The notes under the pieces are model-generated. The model did no database searches, was not told the origin of the DNA, and was given only the letters and a program-made list of their open reading frames with translations. A program made the translations under genes and the position numbers. From Marinomonas sargassi (GTDB lineage Bacteria > Pseudomonadota > Gammaproteobacteria > Pseudomonadales > Marinomonadaceae): 64,000 nt of DNA. This document shows, one piece after another, positions 36,538 through 43,894 of the stretch. The stretch's first letter is position 1. Each line of letters opens with the position of its first letter. The stretch is from NCBI RefSeq assembly GCF_025716875.1, contig NZ_JAOVZB010000001.1:806001-870000 (forward strand), in the 5' to 3' direction.

Positions 36538-37662
36538 ATGTCGAACCTAATCAAGTTGAGTAAATTCGCTTTTGTTGGATTGTTCGCCGTTTTATTGGTT
36601 GCCTGTGGTGGCTCTGATAAACAAGAAGAACAAGTTACAGAAAAAACAAATTCTGAAACAAAGGTACAAAGTTTTGAATGGAAAATGGTCACATCTTGGC
36701 CGAAAAACTTTCCAGGTATCGGTACCAGTGCTGAATCTCTAGCAAAGAACATAACGGAAATGTCTGGTGGCCGTTTAACGGTTAAAGTATATGCGGCAGG
36801 TGAGCTAGTACCACCATTGGAAGTGTTTGATGCCGTTTCTCGTGGCACTGCAGAAATGGGTCACAGTGCCTCTTACTACTGGAAAGGCAAAGTGCCCGCT
36901 GCACAGTTCTTTACGACAGTACCTTTTGGCCTGACAGCACAAGAGTTTAATGCTTGGGTTTATCACGGTGGTGGTTTAGAGCTATGGGAAGAACTGTATG
37001 CTCCTTTCAATGTGATTCCTATGCCAGCAGGCAACCCAGGTGCACAAATGGGTGGTTGGTTTAATAAAGAAATCAATTCTTTAGCAGACTTCCAAGGTTT
37101 GAAAATGCGTATGCCGGGCTTAGGTGGAGAAGTACTTAAGAAAATTGGTGCGACACCAATTAACCTGCCAGGCGGTGAAATTTTCACATCTCTTCAAACC
37201 GGTGCTATTGACGCAACTGAGTGGGTTGGACCATATAACGACCTAGCTTTTGGTTTATACAAAGCGGCTAAGTACTACTACTACCCAGGTTGGCATGAGC
37301 CGGGTTCAGCGGTAGAAGCTATCTTCAATAAAGATGCTTTTGAAGCTTTGCCTGCCGACTTACAAGCCATTGTTCGTATTGCAACACAGCAAGCGAACTT
37401 AGATATGCTAAGTGAGTTTACTGCCCGTAATAACGCTGCGTTACAAACTTTGGTTAATGACCATGGTGTTATTTTGAAGCCTTTCCCAGAAGATTTATTG
37501 GAAGCGCTAAAACAAGCGTCTCAAGAAACTCTAGAAGAAGTGGCTGCTAGCGATGCGGATAGCCAAAAAGTATATGACGCTTTTAAAGCATTCCGTAGCT
37601 CAGTAAGCGATTGGCATGATGTTTCTGAGCGTGCCTTTATTAATGGCCGAGCAAACGACTAA
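36538..37662 (+). CDS. TRAP transporter substrate-binding lipoprotein, copy 1 (FcbT1/TakP type)
   Basis: DctP-fold proteins deliver carboxylates to TRAP permeases. The 374-residue product has a lipoprotein signal peptide with lipobox LVAC (Cys at residue 22), a short charged linker, and a binding domain with WKMVTSWPKNFPG, AAGELVPPLEVFDAVSRGTA, GGWFNKEI, the carboxylate-binding Arg in LKMRMPGLGG, and SLQTGAIDATEW. The type matches alpha-keto-acid or mannitol/chloroaromatic TRAP proteins. No membrane subunits are adjacent; compatible ones lie at 45-47 kb. AGAGGGGA precedes the ATG. Lipid anchoring is less usual than a free periplasmic form. Confidence 0.88.
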   Translation: MSNLIKLSKFAFVGLFAVLLVACGGSDKQEEQVTEKTNSETKVQSFEWKMVTSWPKNFPGIGTSAESLAKNITEMSGGRLTVKVYAAGELVPPLEVFDAVSRGTAEMGHSASYYWKGKVPAAQFFTTVPFGLTAQEFNAWVYHGGGLELWEELYAPFNVIPMPAGNPGAQMGGWFNKEINSLADFQGLKMRMPGLGGEVLKKIGATPINLPGGEIFTSLQTGAIDATEWVGPYNDLAFGLYKAAKYYYYPGWHEPGSAVEAIFNKDAFEALPADLQAIVRIATQQANLDMLSEFTARNNAALQTLVNDHGVILKPFPEDLLEALKQASQETLEEVAASDADSQKVYDAFKAFRSSVSDWHDVSERAFINGRAND

Positions 37663-37730: not shown

Positions 37731-37913
37731 TAATAATAAGAAAGTTACCAAAACGCAAAAAAGAACTTGAGGATAGGGGCATCAATTCATACTATTTCGT
37801 TACTTAGTTTATAAAAATGGCTAATACTTTCTTTAGCTATTTTGAAAAACAAAGGTCAAGCAAGCCGGTTACTTAATGGAAAACATAAAAATAAATATCC
37901 TGAGGAAAACATA

Positions 37914-39026
37914 ATGAGAAAAATACAAACATGGAGCAAGTTAGCTCTTGTTAGTTTAGCAACAGCGACATTAGTGGCATGCGGAGGCTCTGATAAAGCC
38001 GAAGAAACCGCTAAAGTAGAGAAAAAAGTAGAAACCATTGAATGGAAAATGGTGACAACTTGGCCAAAAAATTTCCCAGGGTTAGGTACTGGTGCTGAGA
38101 ATTTAGCAAAAAGTATTAATGATATGTCCAATGGTCGCTTAAACATTACAGTCTATGCGGCCGGTGAGCTTGTTCCACCTTTAGAAGTATTTGATGCGGT
38201 ATCCCGTGGTACAGCTCAAATGGGCCATGGTGCTGCGTATTATTGGAAAGGTAAAGCGCCTGCAGCTCAATTCTTTACTGCGGTACCTTTTGGTTTTACC
38301 GCTCAAGAGATCAACTCTTGGATTCACCATGGTGGCGGTTTGAAGCTATGGGAAGAAATTTACGCCCCATTTAATTTGATTCCAATGGCAGCTGGTAACA
38401 CAGGCGTACAAATGGGTGGTTGGTTTAACAAAGAAATCAATTCCCTTGAAGACTTCCAAGGCTTAAAAATGCGTATCCCGGGCTTGGGTGGCGAAGTCTT
38501 GAAGAAAGTAGGCGGCACACCAATTAACTTGCCGGGTGGTGAAATCTTTACTTCACTACAGACGGGAGCTATTGATGCGACTGAGTTTGTTGGCCCATAC
38601 AACGATTTAGCTTTTGGTTTGTATAAAGCCGCTAAATTCTACTACTACCCGGGCTGGCATGAGCCAGGTTCTACAATGGAAGCGCTTTTCAACAAAGAAG
38701 CATTTGAAGCTCTACCGCAGGATCTACAGCTAATTGTCCGCGCAGCGACACGTCAAGCCAACGCAGAAATGCTTGATGAGTTCACAGCGTTGAACAACTC
38801 TGCTCTACAAACTTTGGTGAATGAGCATAACGTTATCCTTAAACCTTTCCCTGCTGATGTATTGTCTGCATTGAAAAAAGCATCTGATGAGACATTAGAA
38901 GAGGTTGCCTCTGCAGATCCACTAAGTCGAAAAGTGTATGACTCGTTTAAAGACTTTGGTAGCAAGGTTCGAGCATGGCACGAAGTGTCTGAACGTGCTT
39001 ATATCAATGGTCGTGAGACAGAATAA
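37914..39026 (+). CDS. TRAP transporter substrate-binding lipoprotein, copy 2
   Basis: This 370-residue protein is a close paralogue of the gene just upstream: most of the binding domain is identical (AAGELVPPLEVFDAVSRGTA, GGWFNKEINSL, INLPGGEIFTSLQTGAIDAT), with differences concentrated in the linker and C-terminus. It has a lipobox LVAC. The start at 37914 is chosen because TGAGGA lies 7 nt upstream and it begins the signal peptide; the longer frame from 37842 adds 24 residues with no signal character. Both copies keep the binding residues, so both should be functional. Confidence 0.88.
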   Translation: MRKIQTWSKLALVSLATATLVACGGSDKAEETAKVEKKVETIEWKMVTTWPKNFPGLGTGAENLAKSINDMSNGRLNITVYAAGELVPPLEVFDAVSRGTAQMGHGAAYYWKGKAPAAQFFTAVPFGFTAQEINSWIHHGGGLKLWEEIYAPFNLIPMAAGNTGVQMGGWFNKEINSLEDFQGLKMRIPGLGGEVLKKVGGTPINLPGGEIFTSLQTGAIDATEFVGPYNDLAFGLYKAAKFYYYPGWHEPGSTMEALFNKEAFEALPQDLQLIVRAATRQANAEMLDEFTALNNSALQTLVNEHNVILKPFPADVLSALKKASDETLEEVASADPLSRKVYDSFKDFGSKVRAWHEVSERAYINGRETE

Positions 39027-39041
39027 ACAGGGTTATAGCTT

Positions 39042-39086
39042 AAAAAGAGCCCCTTTTACTGAAGAGTAAAAGGGGCTCTTTTTTTG
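39042..39086 (+). terminator. Terminator after the second TRAP binding-protein gene
   Basis: AAAAAGAGCCCCTTTTACT (39042-39060) and its exact complement (39065-39083) form a perfect 19-bp stem with loop GAAG, followed by more T residues. It can work in both directions. Confidence 0.92.
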
Positions 39087-39126: not shown

Positions 39127-39807
39127 TTAATCTGCTTTGCTGCCAAGTTCTAACAGGGTTGCGTTTCCGCCAATAGCCGTTGTATTTATGGATACAGTTT
39201 TTTCGGTTATGAAATTTAGAATATAGTTAGGCTTTGCTATTCTTGCTAACGTATCACTGGTTTCAGCGACCAGTTGGCAAAGTAAACCTTCTTTTGCTGC
39301 TAGTCTTGAGTTCAATGACTTGGCTTTTTTCATATCACATAGGATGGCCACACCAGCTAACGAGTCAGCTTCTAGTAAAGCATCTAAAACCACATCACTG
39401 ATATTCTGCACAACACCTTCAGGGAGCAAAGGCTGCAGTATATCTATAAGGCGCTTTCCTTCTAACCCTGACGTAATAATAGGGTTACCAGCAACTAACG
39501 CTGTGTAAACTTGGCCAACTAACGCTGTGCTGACATGTTCACCTGCGAGATCGTTTAAGCATAGAAATGGCCCTCTACCTTGAGAAAATAGCTCATTACG
39601 CTCACCTGTTGGTCCCGGCATAATCTGCTTATCAGCTATTTTTTCTTGGGCATTATTGAGCTGCCACTCTGCCATTTTTTGCTGTTCTTCAGCTAATAAA
39701 GGGAGTGTTTTTCTTAGCGCATCACAGCGCCCAGTGACACCCAGTCTGTCCCATCGCTCAAAAGCATTTAAAGCGACCTGAATTTGGTTTGTATGTGTTG
39801 TTGTCAT
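39127..39807 (-). CDS. Detached C-terminal (ALDH-superfamily) domain of PutA
   Basis: The 226-residue product matches the C-terminal end of long PutA proteins: MPGPTGERNELFSQGRGPFLCL, and the final SINTTAIGGNATLLELG. In long PutAs this domain caps the substrate-channelling cavity. Here it is a separate cistron: putA ends in TAG at 39820-39822, four codons follow, and this ATG (39807) is in the same frame. AGGA overlapping the putA stop gives a plausible ribosome-binding site. It is therefore either a split gene making two polypeptides or a PutA broken by one nonsense change. Confidence 0.85.
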   Translation of the reverse strand: MTTTHTNQIQVALNAFERWDRLGVTGRCDALRKTLPLLAEEQQKMAEWQLNNAQEKIADKQIMPGPTGERNELFSQGRGPFLCLNDLAGEHVSTALVGQVYTALVAGNPIITSGLEGKRLIDILQPLLPEGVVQNISDVVLDALLEADSLAGVAILCDMKKAKSLNSRLAAKEGLLCQLVAETSDTLARIAKPNYILNFITEKTVSINTTAIGGNATLLELGSKAD

Positions 39808-39819
39808 AGTCGTTTTCCT

Positions 39820-42800
39820 CTAAAGCTCTTTCTCTAATGCGAAACGTGGAAGGTAGTGGGGACCGCCTGCTTTTGGCCCAGTGCCCGATAAACCTTGGCC
39901 ACCAAATGGCTGTACACCAACAACAGCACCAACTTGGTCACGGTTAAGGTAAATGTTACCGACACGAGCGCGATCAACAATACGGGCACACGTTGTTTCG
40001 TTTCGGCTATGGACGCCCATGGTGAGACCGAACCCTGAGTTGTTAATGGTGTCGATAATCTGGTCTAGCTCACGAGCTTTATAGCGCACGACATGCAAAA
40101 TAGGGCCGAACTTTTCATCCGAGATTTGATTGATGTTATCTATTTCAAATGCCGTAGGTGGTACAAAGGTGCCATTTTCAGCAAAGCTAGGTAATGCTGC
40201 TTGAGCAATTAATTTACCTTTTACTTTCATGTCTTCTATATGGTCTAAGAGCATTTCTTGGGCGTTTTTATCGATAACTGGGCCCACATCCGTACTATGT
40301 AAATAGGGTAGACCGACAGATTGCTCTTTCATGGCACCCTTAATCATCACAATAACTTTATCGGCAATGTCTTCTTGCACAAATAAGACACGTAGAGCTG
40401 AACAACGTTGGCCTGCAGACGCAAAGGCAGAGCGAACCACATCTCGTACTACTTGTTCTGGAAGAGAGGTGGAGTCCACTAACATGGCATTTTGCCCACC
40501 TGTTTCAGCGATAACAGGAATAGGGTCAACATCACGGTTTGATAAGCTACGATTAATCCTTTGTGCAGTACCCGTTGAGCCAGTAAAAGCCAGCCCTGCA
40601 ATATGTGGATTATTCGTAAGGTTATTCCCTATATAAGAGCCTTTACCTATAACAAGGTGCAGCACATTGGTTGGAATACCCGCTTCGTGGAGAAGCTCTA
40701 CGGTACGAAAAGCAATAAGACTTGTCTGCTCAGCAGGTTTGGCGATAACGGTATTACCCGTTACTAATGCGGCAGCCACTTGACCCATAAAGATAGCTAA
40801 AGGGAAATTCCACGGACTAATGCAAACAAATACACCTCGCCCCACTATTTGAACCCTTTTTTCATTTTTCAGAAAATCTGTATATATTTTTTCGCCAGAT
40901 AAATGATCCCTTGCCTGTTGGGCGTAATAACGACAGAAGTCGACGGCTTCTCTTACTTCATCAAGGCTATCTTGAATTGTTTTGCCTGCTTCCCTGTGGC
41001 AGATAGCAACCAGCTCTGCATAGTTTTCCTCTAGCAAGTCTGCGGCTTTCTCTAAGCAATTAGCGCGTTCACCCATAGTGAGAGAAGACCAAGCAGGGAA
41101 AGCCTCTTGAGCGATATTAATGGCTTCATCGACAGTGCTTGGTTCGGCGCAATCAACTTTACCCACTACTTGAGAGTGATCGTAAGGGCTTTTTACGATT
41201 GGAGAGTTATTCGTCGCCACTTTTTCGCCGCCAACGAGAGAGTATCCGCGCCACTGTATATCTGCTGACATAAAGTGATTTACCTTCTCTTGGAAAGGAG
41301 TCCACTCGGAATCTATTTCAATATTTGGAGCGAATGAGTTTTTTCTGTCGTTGAATAAGCTCTCAGGTAGCTTGATATAAGGGTTAGCCAAAGACTGGCG
41401 CCCTTCCAATAAGGTAACAGGGTGTTCTACCAAATTTTCTACTGGGTAGCTGGCATCGATCAGTCTGTGAACAAATGAGCTGTTGGCACCATTTTCTAAT
41501 AAGCGACGTACAAGGTAAGGAAGGAGATCCTTATGGCTGCCTACAGGGGCATAAATACGGACACAGATATTATTCTTGTCTATTAAATGGTTATAAAGTG
41601 CGTCTCCCATACCGTGTAAACGTTGGAATTCGAACTCATCTGTTGTCGCATCTAGCTGCGTCGCCATAGTATGAATGGTCGCTATGGTATGGGCATTGTG
41701 GCTAGCAAACTGAGGGAACAAGTTAGCGCGAGTATGTTCACTTAATAGGAAGTGCGCACAAGCAAGGTAAGACACGTCGGTTGCTTCTTTTCGTGTATAA
41801 ACAGGGTAGCCGTTCACGCCTTTTTGCTGGCAGAGCTTAATCTCTGAATCCCAGTAAGCCCCTTTTACTAGACGTACAGGAATACGTTTACCTTGTTGCT
41901 TGGATAACGCCGTAAGCCAAGCTAAAACAGCTAGGGCGCGTTTTGAGTAAGCTTGTACAACAAGGCCAAACAAGTTCCAATCATTGGTTACTTCATCAAG
42001 AAATAACTTCTCGAACAGTTTTAAAGACAGCTCTAAACGGTCGGCTTCCTCTGCATCTATGGTAATGCCTACATTGACGGCGCGAGCTTGCTGAATAAGC
42101 CCTTTAACGCTTTCAAACAGCTCTGTCATGACTCGTTCTTCACAACCTGTTTCGTAACGAGGGTGAAGTGCAGAAAGCTTAATGGAAATGGTTGGACGAT
42201 GATCCTGTTTATAAGAATCCTTACCAACGGACTGAATCGCTCGTTCATAAGAAGTCAGATACTTTTTAGCATCGTCTGCGGTTAATGCAGCTTCTCCAAG
42301 CATATCGAAAGAATAGGTGTAGCCTCTATCGCGGTATTTTTTACCTCGGGATAGCGCTTCTTTAATATCACGACCCAAAACAAACTGATGCCCCATAATC
42401 TTCATGGCTTGGTTCATTGCTTTGCGAATGACAGGCTCGGATACACGGTTCACCATGCGGTTTACTAAATTAGCCGGTGAGCCGTCTTGCTTTTCACTCA
42501 TGGTCACGACTTTGCCCGTAAGCAATAGACCCCAAGTAGAAGCATTGACGAAGAAGGAATCTGAATTCTTAGTGTGTGATGCCCAATCCGCAACACTGAG
42601 TCGGTCTTTAATAAAAGCATCAGCGGTGTCTTTGTCTGGCACGCGCATTAGGGCTTCGGCAAGGCACATAAGTAAAATGCCTTCTTTGGTGTCCAGACTG
42701 TATTCCAACAAAAGCGCATCAATCATAGACATGCTCTCGTCATCTTTACGTACCTCAGTAATCAAATGGAAGGCATTATCTGTTTGAGTTTTTAATTGTT

Positions 42801-42942
42801 CTGCTGATGGTTTGGCAAGAGGTAAAAGCTCTTTTAGCCAGCTTTCTTCATCAACTTTATAAAGAGGAGAAATGAGCGACCATAGCGTGCTGGGTGATTG
42901 ATTTATGAAGCTTGGGTTAAGCACTTCAATAGCTGTAAACAT
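39820..42942 (-). CDS. putA: Bifunctional proline dehydrogenase / P5C dehydrogenase PutA, core part
   Basis: PutA oxidises proline to P5C with FAD and then to glutamate with NAD+. The 1040-residue product has the PRODH barrel (about residues 130-480, with VRLVKGAYWDSEIK and RRLLENGANSSFVHRL) and the ALDH domain (about 560-1035, with SPWNFPLAIFMGQ, AGLAFTGSTGTA, the catalytic Cys in SAGQRCSALRV, and GVQPFGGQGLSGTG). The start at 42942 has GGGAG upstream; the ATG at 42960 has none. There is no obvious N-terminal ribbon-helix-helix, so it should not repress itself; an AraC gene nearby may regulate it. It ends in an in-frame TAG before the detached C-terminal domain. Confidence 0.95.
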   Translation of the reverse strand: MFTAIEVLNPSFINQSPSTLWSLISPLYKVDEESWLKELLPLAKPSAEQLKTQTDNAFHLITEVRKDDESMSMIDALLLEYSLDTKEGILLMCLAEALMRVPDKDTADAFIKDRLSVADWASHTKNSDSFFVNASTWGLLLTGKVVTMSEKQDGSPANLVNRMVNRVSEPVIRKAMNQAMKIMGHQFVLGRDIKEALSRGKKYRDRGYTYSFDMLGEAALTADDAKKYLTSYERAIQSVGKDSYKQDHRPTISIKLSALHPRYETGCEERVMTELFESVKGLIQQARAVNVGITIDAEEADRLELSLKLFEKLFLDEVTNDWNLFGLVVQAYSKRALAVLAWLTALSKQQGKRIPVRLVKGAYWDSEIKLCQQKGVNGYPVYTRKEATDVSYLACAHFLLSEHTRANLFPQFASHNAHTIATIHTMATQLDATTDEFEFQRLHGMGDALYNHLIDKNNICVRIYAPVGSHKDLLPYLVRRLLENGANSSFVHRLIDASYPVENLVEHPVTLLEGRQSLANPYIKLPESLFNDRKNSFAPNIEIDSEWTPFQEKVNHFMSADIQWRGYSLVGGEKVATNNSPIVKSPYDHSQVVGKVDCAEPSTVDEAINIAQEAFPAWSSLTMGERANCLEKAADLLEENYAELVAICHREAGKTIQDSLDEVREAVDFCRYYAQQARDHLSGEKIYTDFLKNEKRVQIVGRGVFVCISPWNFPLAIFMGQVAAALVTGNTVIAKPAEQTSLIAFRTVELLHEAGIPTNVLHLVIGKGSYIGNNLTNNPHIAGLAFTGSTGTAQRINRSLSNRDVDPIPVIAETGGQNAMLVDSTSLPEQVVRDVVRSAFASAGQRCSALRVLFVQEDIADKVIVMIKGAMKEQSVGLPYLHSTDVGPVIDKNAQEMLLDHIEDMKVKGKLIAQAALPSFAENGTFVPPTAFEIDNINQISDEKFGPILHVVRYKARELDQIIDTINNSGFGLTMGVHSRNETTCARIVDRARVGNIYLNRDQVGAVVGVQPFGGQGLSGTGPKAGGPHYLPRFALEKEL

Positions 42943-43126
42943 GATTATGTTCTCCCGCATTAGTATAAAAATAATGACGACACTTTAATCATTAGGGGAA
43001 GATACTGTCTTTCGAAAAACTCGGTTTTTTTTACAAAAAAATCCGATCAACTAAATTAAAAATAGACGTGACTGAGGAGATATAACAGTAAGAGGTTTTA
43101 TGCAAAGGAAATGAGGTTAACTAGTA

Positions 43127-43894
43127 TCAGAGTAAACTTTTTTGAAACTTCACAGGCGAAACCCCCAGTACCTGAGTAAAGACACTGGTCATGGCACTTT
43201 GGCTAGAAAAGCCTGACATTTCTGCCACTTGAATAGGGGTGAAACCTTCCCTAAGTAGGTGTTTAGCTCGTTCTAAGCGTTTACGCATTAGATATTGATG
43301 AGGTGTGATACCTGTTTTTTCTTTAAATCGCTCATGGAATTGGCTAACACTGAGGAAACAAAAATTAGCCAATTGATCTATGTGCACACGACGAGATAAG
43401 TTTAACTCGATAAACTGGTCAAGCTTATCTATGTCTAAATGCTTTCCTCGAATTGTTTTACTTTGATTGTTGATTTGGTGTCTAACGGCACTGAGTAGCG
43501 TGTTACCACAAGCCCTAGCTAGCATAGGGTCGTCTGGATATTGTTGTAATTCACCTGATAAGGCAGAAGCCAGAATTTGTAAACGCGGATTCAATTGAAA
43601 GTAGGCGGCTTGGTCAAATAAACGTGAAACAACCTCATACTCTTCATCGGTAATTGCTTTTTGGGGAGGAACCGGTAAGTTGACCAGCATAATGCGGTTT
43701 TCCCCTAACCCTGCAAAAGCATGGCTGTTCTCAGAAGGAAGAATACAACCTTCCCCCATATGCATTTGTTTGCCTTTACCTTGGATATCGAAGTCCGTAT
43801 TGCCGTCCAATACCACTACTAGCTGGTGGTAGTCGTGATCGTGGGCACTGGCTTCGCTTGGTAGGCTTAAAATGTCAGAGTCGAGTTTGGTCAC
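43127..43894 (-). CDS. AraC-family regulator next to putA
   Basis: The 255-residue product has an N-terminal cupin sensor (HDHDYHQLVVVLDGNTDF) and a C-terminal double helix-turn-helix (LANFCFLSVSQFHERFKEKT and VAEMSGFSSQSAMTSVFTQV, PVKFQK). It starts at GTG. It lies just upstream of putA on the same strand. In Pseudomonas aeruginosa the AraC protein PruR activates proline catabolism from a similar place, so a role in putA control is a reasonable inference. Confidence 0.85.
   Translation of the reverse strand: MTKLDSDILSLPSEASAHDHDYHQLVVVLDGNTDFDIQGKGKQMHMGEGCILPSENSHAFAGLGENRIMLVNLPVPPQKAITDEEYEVVSRLFDQAAYFQLNPRLQILASALSGELQQYPDDPMLARACGNTLLSAVRHQINNQSKTIRGKHLDIDKLDQFIELNLSRRVHIDQLANFCFLSVSQFHERFKEKTGITPHQYLMRKRLERAKHLLREGFTPIQVAEMSGFSSQSAMTSVFTQVLGVSPVKFQKSLL

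Follow-up and report, generated by a model that had tools for sequence, protein, structure and literature searches.

Probable division of proline-degrading PutA between two proteins in Marinomonas sargassi and many of its relatives

The proline-degrading enzyme of Marinomonas sargassi and of many of its relatives is, judging from sequence, probably a machine of two proteins and not of one chain. At the locus studied here, which lies in a window of 64,000 nucleotides (the whole stretch of DNA that was analysed), putA is followed by a small gene for a detached C-terminal domain, and we consider it likely that the two genes encode a two-subunit PutA in which a catalytically dead cap, derived from an aldehyde dehydrogenase (ALDH), seals the tunnel of the large chain in trans. 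In the proposed mechanism, the large chain would have kept the proline dehydrogenase and the ALDH module and lost both strand segments of the flap, and the 226-residue chain would be an ALDH-derived pseudo-subunit, with the framework of the NAD-binding domain fused directly to the C-terminal flap and no catalytic domain. Translated from its own ribosome-binding site beside the putA stop, the cap would bind the ALDH module of the large chain, presumably at a stoichiometry of 1:1, cover the substrate tunnel in place of the partner protomer of a type A dimer, and be required for aldehyde dehydrogenase activity.

The features of the locus are collected in Table 1. In the list of open reading frames (ORFs), the minus-strand putA frame has its first ATG at 42960 and ends at the TAG, but the ATG at 42942, with GGGAG 9 nt upstream, is the likelier start and agrees with the coordinates of the initial annotation. 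The large chain matches the Pfam families Pro_dh (2.3e-103), Aldedh (1.8e-116) and Pro_dh-DNA_bdg (1.2e-44), as well as PRK11904 (1586 bits; positions 4-1022 of the 1042 in the profile). From the TAG the sequence runs through AGG AAA ACG ACT to the ATG at 39807, in the same frame in both ORFs, and the second ORF ends at TAA (39127-39129); ORFs and sequence confirm the initial description of a 226-codon gene opening four codons beyond the stop in frame. The ribosome-binding site ascribed to this gene has also held, but its AGGA directly follows the stop and does not overlap it as had been claimed, GAGG alone touching the last base of the stop. An AGGA/GGAG/GAGG core lies near the start of the small gene in 103 of the 117 distinct split loci. 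The description of two cistrons, the second with its own ribosome-binding site, is upheld. The hairpin beyond the small gene is likely a bidirectional terminator of the putA operon; a simple terminator scan did not have it among its results. The AraC-type regulator probably controls the operon. Salinivibrio too has an AraC gene upstream of putA, and Marinobacterium sediminicola has a similar ORF there.

Table 1. Features of the putA locus in window coordinates
Feature	Position	Strand	Remarks
putA catalytic chain	39820..42942	-	1040 aa from ATG 42942; stops just short of the PutA C-terminal motif
putA domains: PutA helical/DNA-binding-like domain, proline dehydrogenase barrel, GSAL/P5C dehydrogenase module	39820..42942	-	
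TAG stop of putA	39820..39822	-	Sequence
AGGA, ribosome-binding site of the second cistron	39816..39819	-	8 nt 5' of ATG
Gene for the detached C-terminal domain (226 aa), a proposed ALDH-derived, non-catalytic cap subunit of PutA	39127..39807	-	
Degenerate first flap segment of the ALDH module, IYTDFLKNEKRVQ	40849..40887	-	Type A chains have PGPTGExN there; alignments
Flap motif PGPTGERN in the detached protein	39595..39618	-	Motif match
C-terminal flap motif INTTAIGGNATLL in the detached protein	39151..39189	-	Motif match
Long perfect hairpin with A/T flanks	39043..39082	.	RNA fold z -7.86; exact match, 0 in 100 shuffles
AraC-type regulator gene, directly upstream of putA	43127..43894	-	HTH_18 2.4e-19

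Besides the window, 46 of 47 sampled genomes from the same genus have the small gene behind putA; the exception, G043, has a completeness of 77% and lacks proline dehydrogenase. In all 47 genus loci the small gene lies directly downstream on the same strand, and the further split loci that were read also have it directly downstream. Since it has been kept beside putA in 46 of these 47 genomes, it is not a chance ORF. In the family of Vibrio sinus, a profile search found it in 110 of 121 genomes and tblastn recovered it in G1059 and G1046, the remaining nine having no Pro_dh match; two loci of this family with an interrupted putA frame (L240 and L243) were left out of the counts. The gene is under purifying selection, with a median dN/dS of 0.056 over 43 close, non-independent pairs from the 46 genus loci other than the window; this measurement, which the initial annotation had proposed as a check, together with intact motifs supports its view of the detached domain as full length and maintained. 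Over 38 pairs, the distances of the large and the small chain are correlated with a Mantel r of 0.83, a value reached in none of 999 permutations; shared ancestry alone could produce this. A recent nonsense mutation, under which the window would hold a damaged putA of type B with a decaying remnant as its tail, would fit the one in-frame stop and the tail in the same frame there, but it conflicts with the low dN/dS and the intact motifs, with a stop at each of the 46 other genus loci and with the recurrence of the layout in other families, and its probability is close to nil. The split is neither a lesion nor dependent on the TAG of the window. The same comparison removes both the single lesion or error that the initial annotation had allowed for and its picture of one division local to the species, as the arrangement spans one genus and several other families.

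It has also been suggested, in the initial annotation, that the two parts may be joined by some amber read-through. In such a case some ribosomes would produce a fused PutA of 1270 residues, the stop setting the ratio, and the frame of the window is indeed open over the four sense codons from TAG to ATG. However, the putA stops of the 117 distinct loci are TAA in 94, TGA in 15 and TAG in eight, the gap to the small gene ranges from -4 to 163 nt, and the small gene is in the frame of putA at 29 of these loci (20 of 47 in the genus), so that the shared frame is not above chance level. The TAG itself is found at four genus loci, against TAA at the other 43, and further stops lie inside several of the same-frame gaps in the genus. 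The RNA at the window junction has no unusual structure for recoding (z -0.41), and inverted repeats of the set length were absent from two long gaps between putA and the small gene. The RNA fold is strong in one of these two gaps. As stop identity, frame and gap vary over the 117 loci, in all of which the second cistron is separate, read-through is ruled out as a general mechanism, and for this species we regard it as very improbable. The comparison of stop, frame and gap over the 117 loci thus led to the rejection of both read-through and a recent lesion.

The argument for a complex comes from the distribution of two motifs, which we take to belong to the ALDH oligomerisation flap from knowledge of the ALDH fold and from alignment with type A PutA. 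The first, PGPTGExN, is present in the ALDH half of 51 of 51 type A chains and in none of 23 type B or 117 split catalytic chains, and the C-terminal motif is on the catalytic chain in 51 of 51 type A and 0 of 117 split loci, type A rows having been collected by similarity to the cap protein and both counts of 51 therefore being biased towards motif-keeping chains. One short single-chain PutA (L171, genome G081), with a variant flap ITGEAN, a degenerate C-terminus and no detached gene found, was set aside from the count of 51; it indicates that a PutA can apparently function without the canonical C-terminal motif. Both motifs occur in the detached protein at all 117 distinct split loci, and in the C-terminal domains of type B the first is found in 20 of 23 (strict form) and the second in 23 of 23. 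This reciprocal loss and retention is the basis on which we infer that the two chains associate, and it makes probable the association in trans that had been put forward initially.

Similar proteins have been annotated as an independent dehydrogenase ('PutC' or 'aldehyde dehydrogenase family protein'). The small protein is homologous to the NAD-binding domain of ALDH, the record of Salinivibrio kushneri names WP_269580071.1 in this way, and a V. campbellii table, in the part of the source available (PMC3858670), does so for a gene taken as the same from gene order. Such a role is nevertheless highly unlikely, because the detached proteins have only about 205-255 residues and no catalytic domain, and each of five ALDH catalytic and NAD motifs (Cys loop, Glu, oxyanion-hole, NAD) is absent from all 117 of them, whereas the large chain retains four of the five in 117 of 117 and the fifth in 115. 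The small protein matches PutA models only partially and far below the curated cut-offs, PRK11904 and PRK11809 being matched by 24 of 24 members. A second alternative is that it binds PutA with a mainly regulatory role in membrane switching, oligomeric state or enzyme level. The amount of a separate subunit could vary, and a part in functional switching has been proposed for the type B C-terminal domain, according to the accessible portion of PMC5293562; even so, we think it unlikely that regulation is the main role, since the catalytic chain has lost both flap motifs, which points to capping first, and the two roles are compatible.

The catalytic chains nest among the short type A PutAs and not the long type B, on trees whose root is not established and with the alternative modestly rejected. 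In the FastTree phylogeny all 38 split chains fall into a single clade that nests with 11 type A chains (support 0.97-0.999), and IQ-TREE holds 31 of 31 together (100) and with eight type A chains (100). A topology uniting the split chains with type B, apart from type A, was rejected by an AU test at a modest p-AU of 0.022, a value that excludes two type A chains nesting inside type B. A far smaller value (5.7e-47) was discounted as unfair, since it was obtained with these two chains held together with the other type A rows. The nesting speaks against the ancestral chain of about 1270 residues that had been proposed, type A enzymes having about 1000-1100.

Less clear is the origin of the cap domain. 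In a joint tree all ALDH modules fall on one side (SH-aLRT 93-95), but the AU test does not reject a topology in which the detached domains are kept with type A ALDH (p-AU 0.24, with 11 rows left out). Of the detached domains, 38 of 38 give a higher score with the profile of the type B domain than with that of type A ALDH; profile-profile scores for the same comparison are a near tie (274 vs 281), and the best solved-structure match of the detached-protein profile is type A, the ALDH module and C-terminus of 3HAZ (2.6e-40). Between a conserved Trp and the flap motif, 14 type A ALDH modules have a spacing of 70-71 and 38 detached domains one of 37-51, and in type B domains it is 39-58 in 18 and 71 in one (L258), with four giving no value; from these ranges, the shortening need not be common to detached and type B domains. 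We tentatively put forward, as a reading that has somewhat less than an even chance of being right, that the split pair represents a fourth PutA architecture, an obligate heteromer produced by subfunctionalisation of the type A homodimer, and that a capping domain arose twice, in cis and in trans. A partial duplicate of the ALDH half would have retained the flap alone and become a dead cap subunit, the catalytic chain would have lost its own flap after the cap subunit arose, and the origin of the cap would be independent of that of the fused type B domain.

Among the standard systems for work on substrate channelling is PutA, whose sealing element, in a large group including the 110 of 121 Vibrio-family genomes, would reside on a second protein. 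A separate cap can be removed, added, titrated or swapped without mutation of the catalytic chain, which opens the flap's part in channelling to direct tests. The locus would also provide a clean case of a homodimer turned into a catalytic chain and a dead cap, and dehydrogenase annotations of the small protein are corrected. In a literature search, whose reach stopped short of the key papers on the type B domain structure and on V. vulnificus putAP, a separately encoded PutA C-terminal domain was undescribed.

The division of PutAs into types A, B and C follows the domains of a single chain, as given in the available part of PMC5293562. The closest clade to the split catalytic chain is type A (Bradyrhizobium japonicum PutA, 3HAZ), a domain-swapped homodimer of one chain according to the accessible text of PMC5786444; it has the same two active sites, but carries the flap in cis, whereas split loci encode the flap motifs in a separate protein. 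Type B (Sinorhizobium meliloti PutA, 5KF6; Rhodobacter capsulatus PutA) has an ALDH-like C-terminal domain with the same final motif, and its ALDH module, like the split catalytic chain, has lost the flap motif. The C-terminal domain of type B contributes to ALDH activity and channelling (PMC5293562, in part) and is thought to cover the tunnel, so that type B would work as the split pair does, but with a fused cap; it is, however, a single chain of about 1200-1300 residues whose catalytic core falls in a different clade. Type C, the trifunctional PutA of, e.g., E. coli, also has the C-terminal domain (PMC5293562, same portion) and is one chain with an N-terminal ribbon-helix-helix DNA-binding domain, for which the large chain of the window gave no Pfam match. 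The nearest counterparts of the cap gene itself are the small gene in the order putA - small gene - putP of Salinivibrio kushneri and, in the available part of the V. campbellii PutB-PutC-PutP list (PMC3858670), PutC, each very probably the same gene. A 25.5-kDa 'putA' spot of V. parahaemolyticus (PMC7381183, in part) is of cap-like size, a lead only, with no tie to computed cap masses. In Vibrionaceae this protein has thus been named an independent dehydrogenase, and its sequence is without catalytic motifs.

The arrangement described in the initial annotation, a TAG-terminated putA followed four codons later by an in-frame 226-aa ORF, is seen among the open reading frames of the window, where a strong hairpin closes the operon. 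No proline dehydrogenase gene other than putA was found in this genome, and the small gene is present in one copy. Across the hairpin, and on the opposite strand, lie two tandem paralogues of TRAP solute-binding proteins (DctP).

Features of the putA locus in the window
Feature	Coordinates	Strand	Details
putA	42942-39820	minus	1040 aa from the likelier start; stop TAG
Small gene	ATG 39807 to TAA 39127-39129	minus	226 aa; frame of putA, four sense codons past the TAG
AGGA	39819-39816	minus	8 nt 5' of the small-gene ATG
Strong hairpin	39043-39082		ends the operon
AraC-type gene			upstream of putA
TRAP solute-binding (DctP) paralogue	36538-37662	plus
TRAP solute-binding (DctP) paralogue	37842-39026	plus

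The small gene is present in 46 of the 47 same-genus genomes in a sample of 94, the sole exception (G043) being 77% complete and lacking a proline dehydrogenase match. At all 47 genus loci, the window included, it lies 3' of putA on the same strand; putA stops with TAG at 4 loci and with TAA at 43, and the small gene is in the frame of putA at 20 of the 47. Across 43 close, non-independent genus pairs with the window excluded, the small gene has a median dN/dS of 0.056, which bears out the suggestion that the detached domain is maintained; in the aldehyde dehydrogenase (ALDH) part of putA the median is 0.033. Given the low value of the small gene and its presence in nearly all sampled genomes of the genus, the reading of the window's putA as a lesion is out. 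Two genus members carry inserted sequence between putA and the small gene, with gaps of 163 nt (L039 1887-2049, minus strand) and 138 nt (L042); the former insert folds as a strong, REP-type-like RNA hairpin (z -9.34).

The initial annotation also considered that amber read-through might join both parts. Over 117 distinct split loci, i.e., putA with a separate small gene, counted among 127 read (L240 and L243 being excluded), putA ends with TAA at 94, TGA at 15 and TAG at only 8. The gaps, whose lengths hinge on a start codon chosen by rule, are below 0 nt at 17 loci, 0-20 nt at 65, 21-40 nt at 29 and above 40 nt at 6, and the frame is shared at 29 of the 117, with a third expected by chance. 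As the general mechanism, read-through is ruled out by the three stop codons, the variable gaps and this frame match. A ribosome-binding core precedes the small gene at 103 of the 117 loci.

Beyond the genus, at least 40 of 390 genomes in an order sample have a full-length small-gene match in a short open frame (350 aa or less, E 4.1e-40 or better), the matches listed comprising 18 from the window's genus, 11 from family f35, 10 from f37 and one from f16. No short-frame match apart from the window was found in a class sample of 368 genomes, and all 11 matching genomes in a phylum sample of 299 belong to the window's class. In f35 the detached gene occurs in 13/13 genomes of one genus and is not detached in the other 68, and in f37 the small gene occurs in 33/79. 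The family of Vibrio sinus has it in 110 of 121 genomes, including one (G1154) with an internal TAA; nine of the remaining 11 lack a Pro_dh match, and G1059 has putA with a diverged small gene. In G1046, another genome outside the 110, putA is interrupted and the downstream cap ORF of 227 aa is intact (L277). In each of the 41 neighbourhoods inspected of the 110, the small gene is preceded on its own strand by a putA frame, which is interrupted in two (L240, L243). Named split loci (16 of 61 sorted) come from Marinobacterium (ten), Psychromonas (three), Vibrio sinus, an Aliivibrio MAG and a Beggiatoa MAG. The Beggiatoa locus clusters with Marinobacterium in the catalytic tree, reflecting either transfer or binning contamination.

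The two motifs that distinguish the architectures, G.TGE.N and a C-terminal motif, are presumably, going by the ALDH fold, parts of its oligomerisation flap. The former occurs in the ALDH half of 51/51 type A (short single-chain) enzymes, a set biased in that most were gathered through likeness to the cap protein, and in none of 23 type B (long single-chain) or 117 split chains. At the chain end, the C-terminal motif is present in 51/51 type A and 23/23 type B enzymes and in 0/117 split catalytic chains. Both are found in 117/117 detached proteins, and the type B C-terminal domains have them in 20/23 (flap, strict) and 23/23. Of five ALDH catalytic and NAD motifs, each is absent from all 117 detached proteins, while the large chain has four in 117/117 and one in 115/117. 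As judged from the alignment, the detached protein is an ALDH NAD-binding framework with the C-terminal flap and without the catalytic domain. One short single-chain PutA (L171, genome G081), excluded from the 51, misfits the type A pattern, having a variant flap and a degenerate C-terminal motif; a search of G081 for a detached cap gene found none, and it is possibly a further way to build PutA.

A tree built from 75 catalytic chains (38 split, 14 type A, 23 type B; 955 columns) puts every split chain in a single clade (38/38; 0.999) that nests with 11 type A chains (0.97). With 59 of the 75 chains, IQ-TREE placed 31/31 split chains together (100) inside eight type A chains (100), two of which adjoin the split clade (99). 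A topology joining split and type B chains against type A was rejected (p 0.022, run without two type A chains that fall within type B). The nearest single-chain relatives are therefore the short enzymes, and the ancestral chain of about 1270 residues proposed earlier is unsupported, the split chains nesting among type A in a tree without a known root. Regarding a common origin of the cap and type B domains, the alternative, in which the detached domains group with type A ALDH modules, is not rejected (p-AU 0.24), and profile scores point in both directions. In profile comparison, detached and type B caps are each nearer to the ALDH modules of type A enzymes than to their own partner's ALDH, a pattern that would follow from loss by the partner of the elements retained in the cap. 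With the detached-cap profile, the highest score among the 23 type B domains (158.7 bits) belongs to a single-chain PutA from another class (L253, G998).

The literature searched, which missed several key papers, yielded no description of a PutA of this split kind. The small gene is already known to annotation, but under enzyme names, e.g., 'aldehyde dehydrogenase family protein' in Salinivibrio kushneri, where it sits between putA and putP, with araC ahead of putA. For V. campbellii, 'PutC' is tabulated beside PutB and PutP (PMC3858670), and gene order suggests that it is the small gene. A possible candidate for the cap protein, which it matches in size, is a 2-D gel spot of V. parahaemolyticus named 'putA', for which PMC7381183 gives a mass of 25,474 Da. 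What is new is the reciprocal flap loss, the spread of the arrangement and its type A descent.

Since the flap elements are relocated to the neighbouring gene, we propose a large catalytic chain and a dead cap subunit, the latter probably binding the former and sealing its tunnel. In type A PutA, according to PMC5786444, the oligomerisation domain of one protomer closes over the tunnel of the other, and the type B domain is described in PMC5293562 as aiding aldehyde dehydrogenase activity and channelling. The split enzyme has exactly these flap elements on the neighbouring gene.
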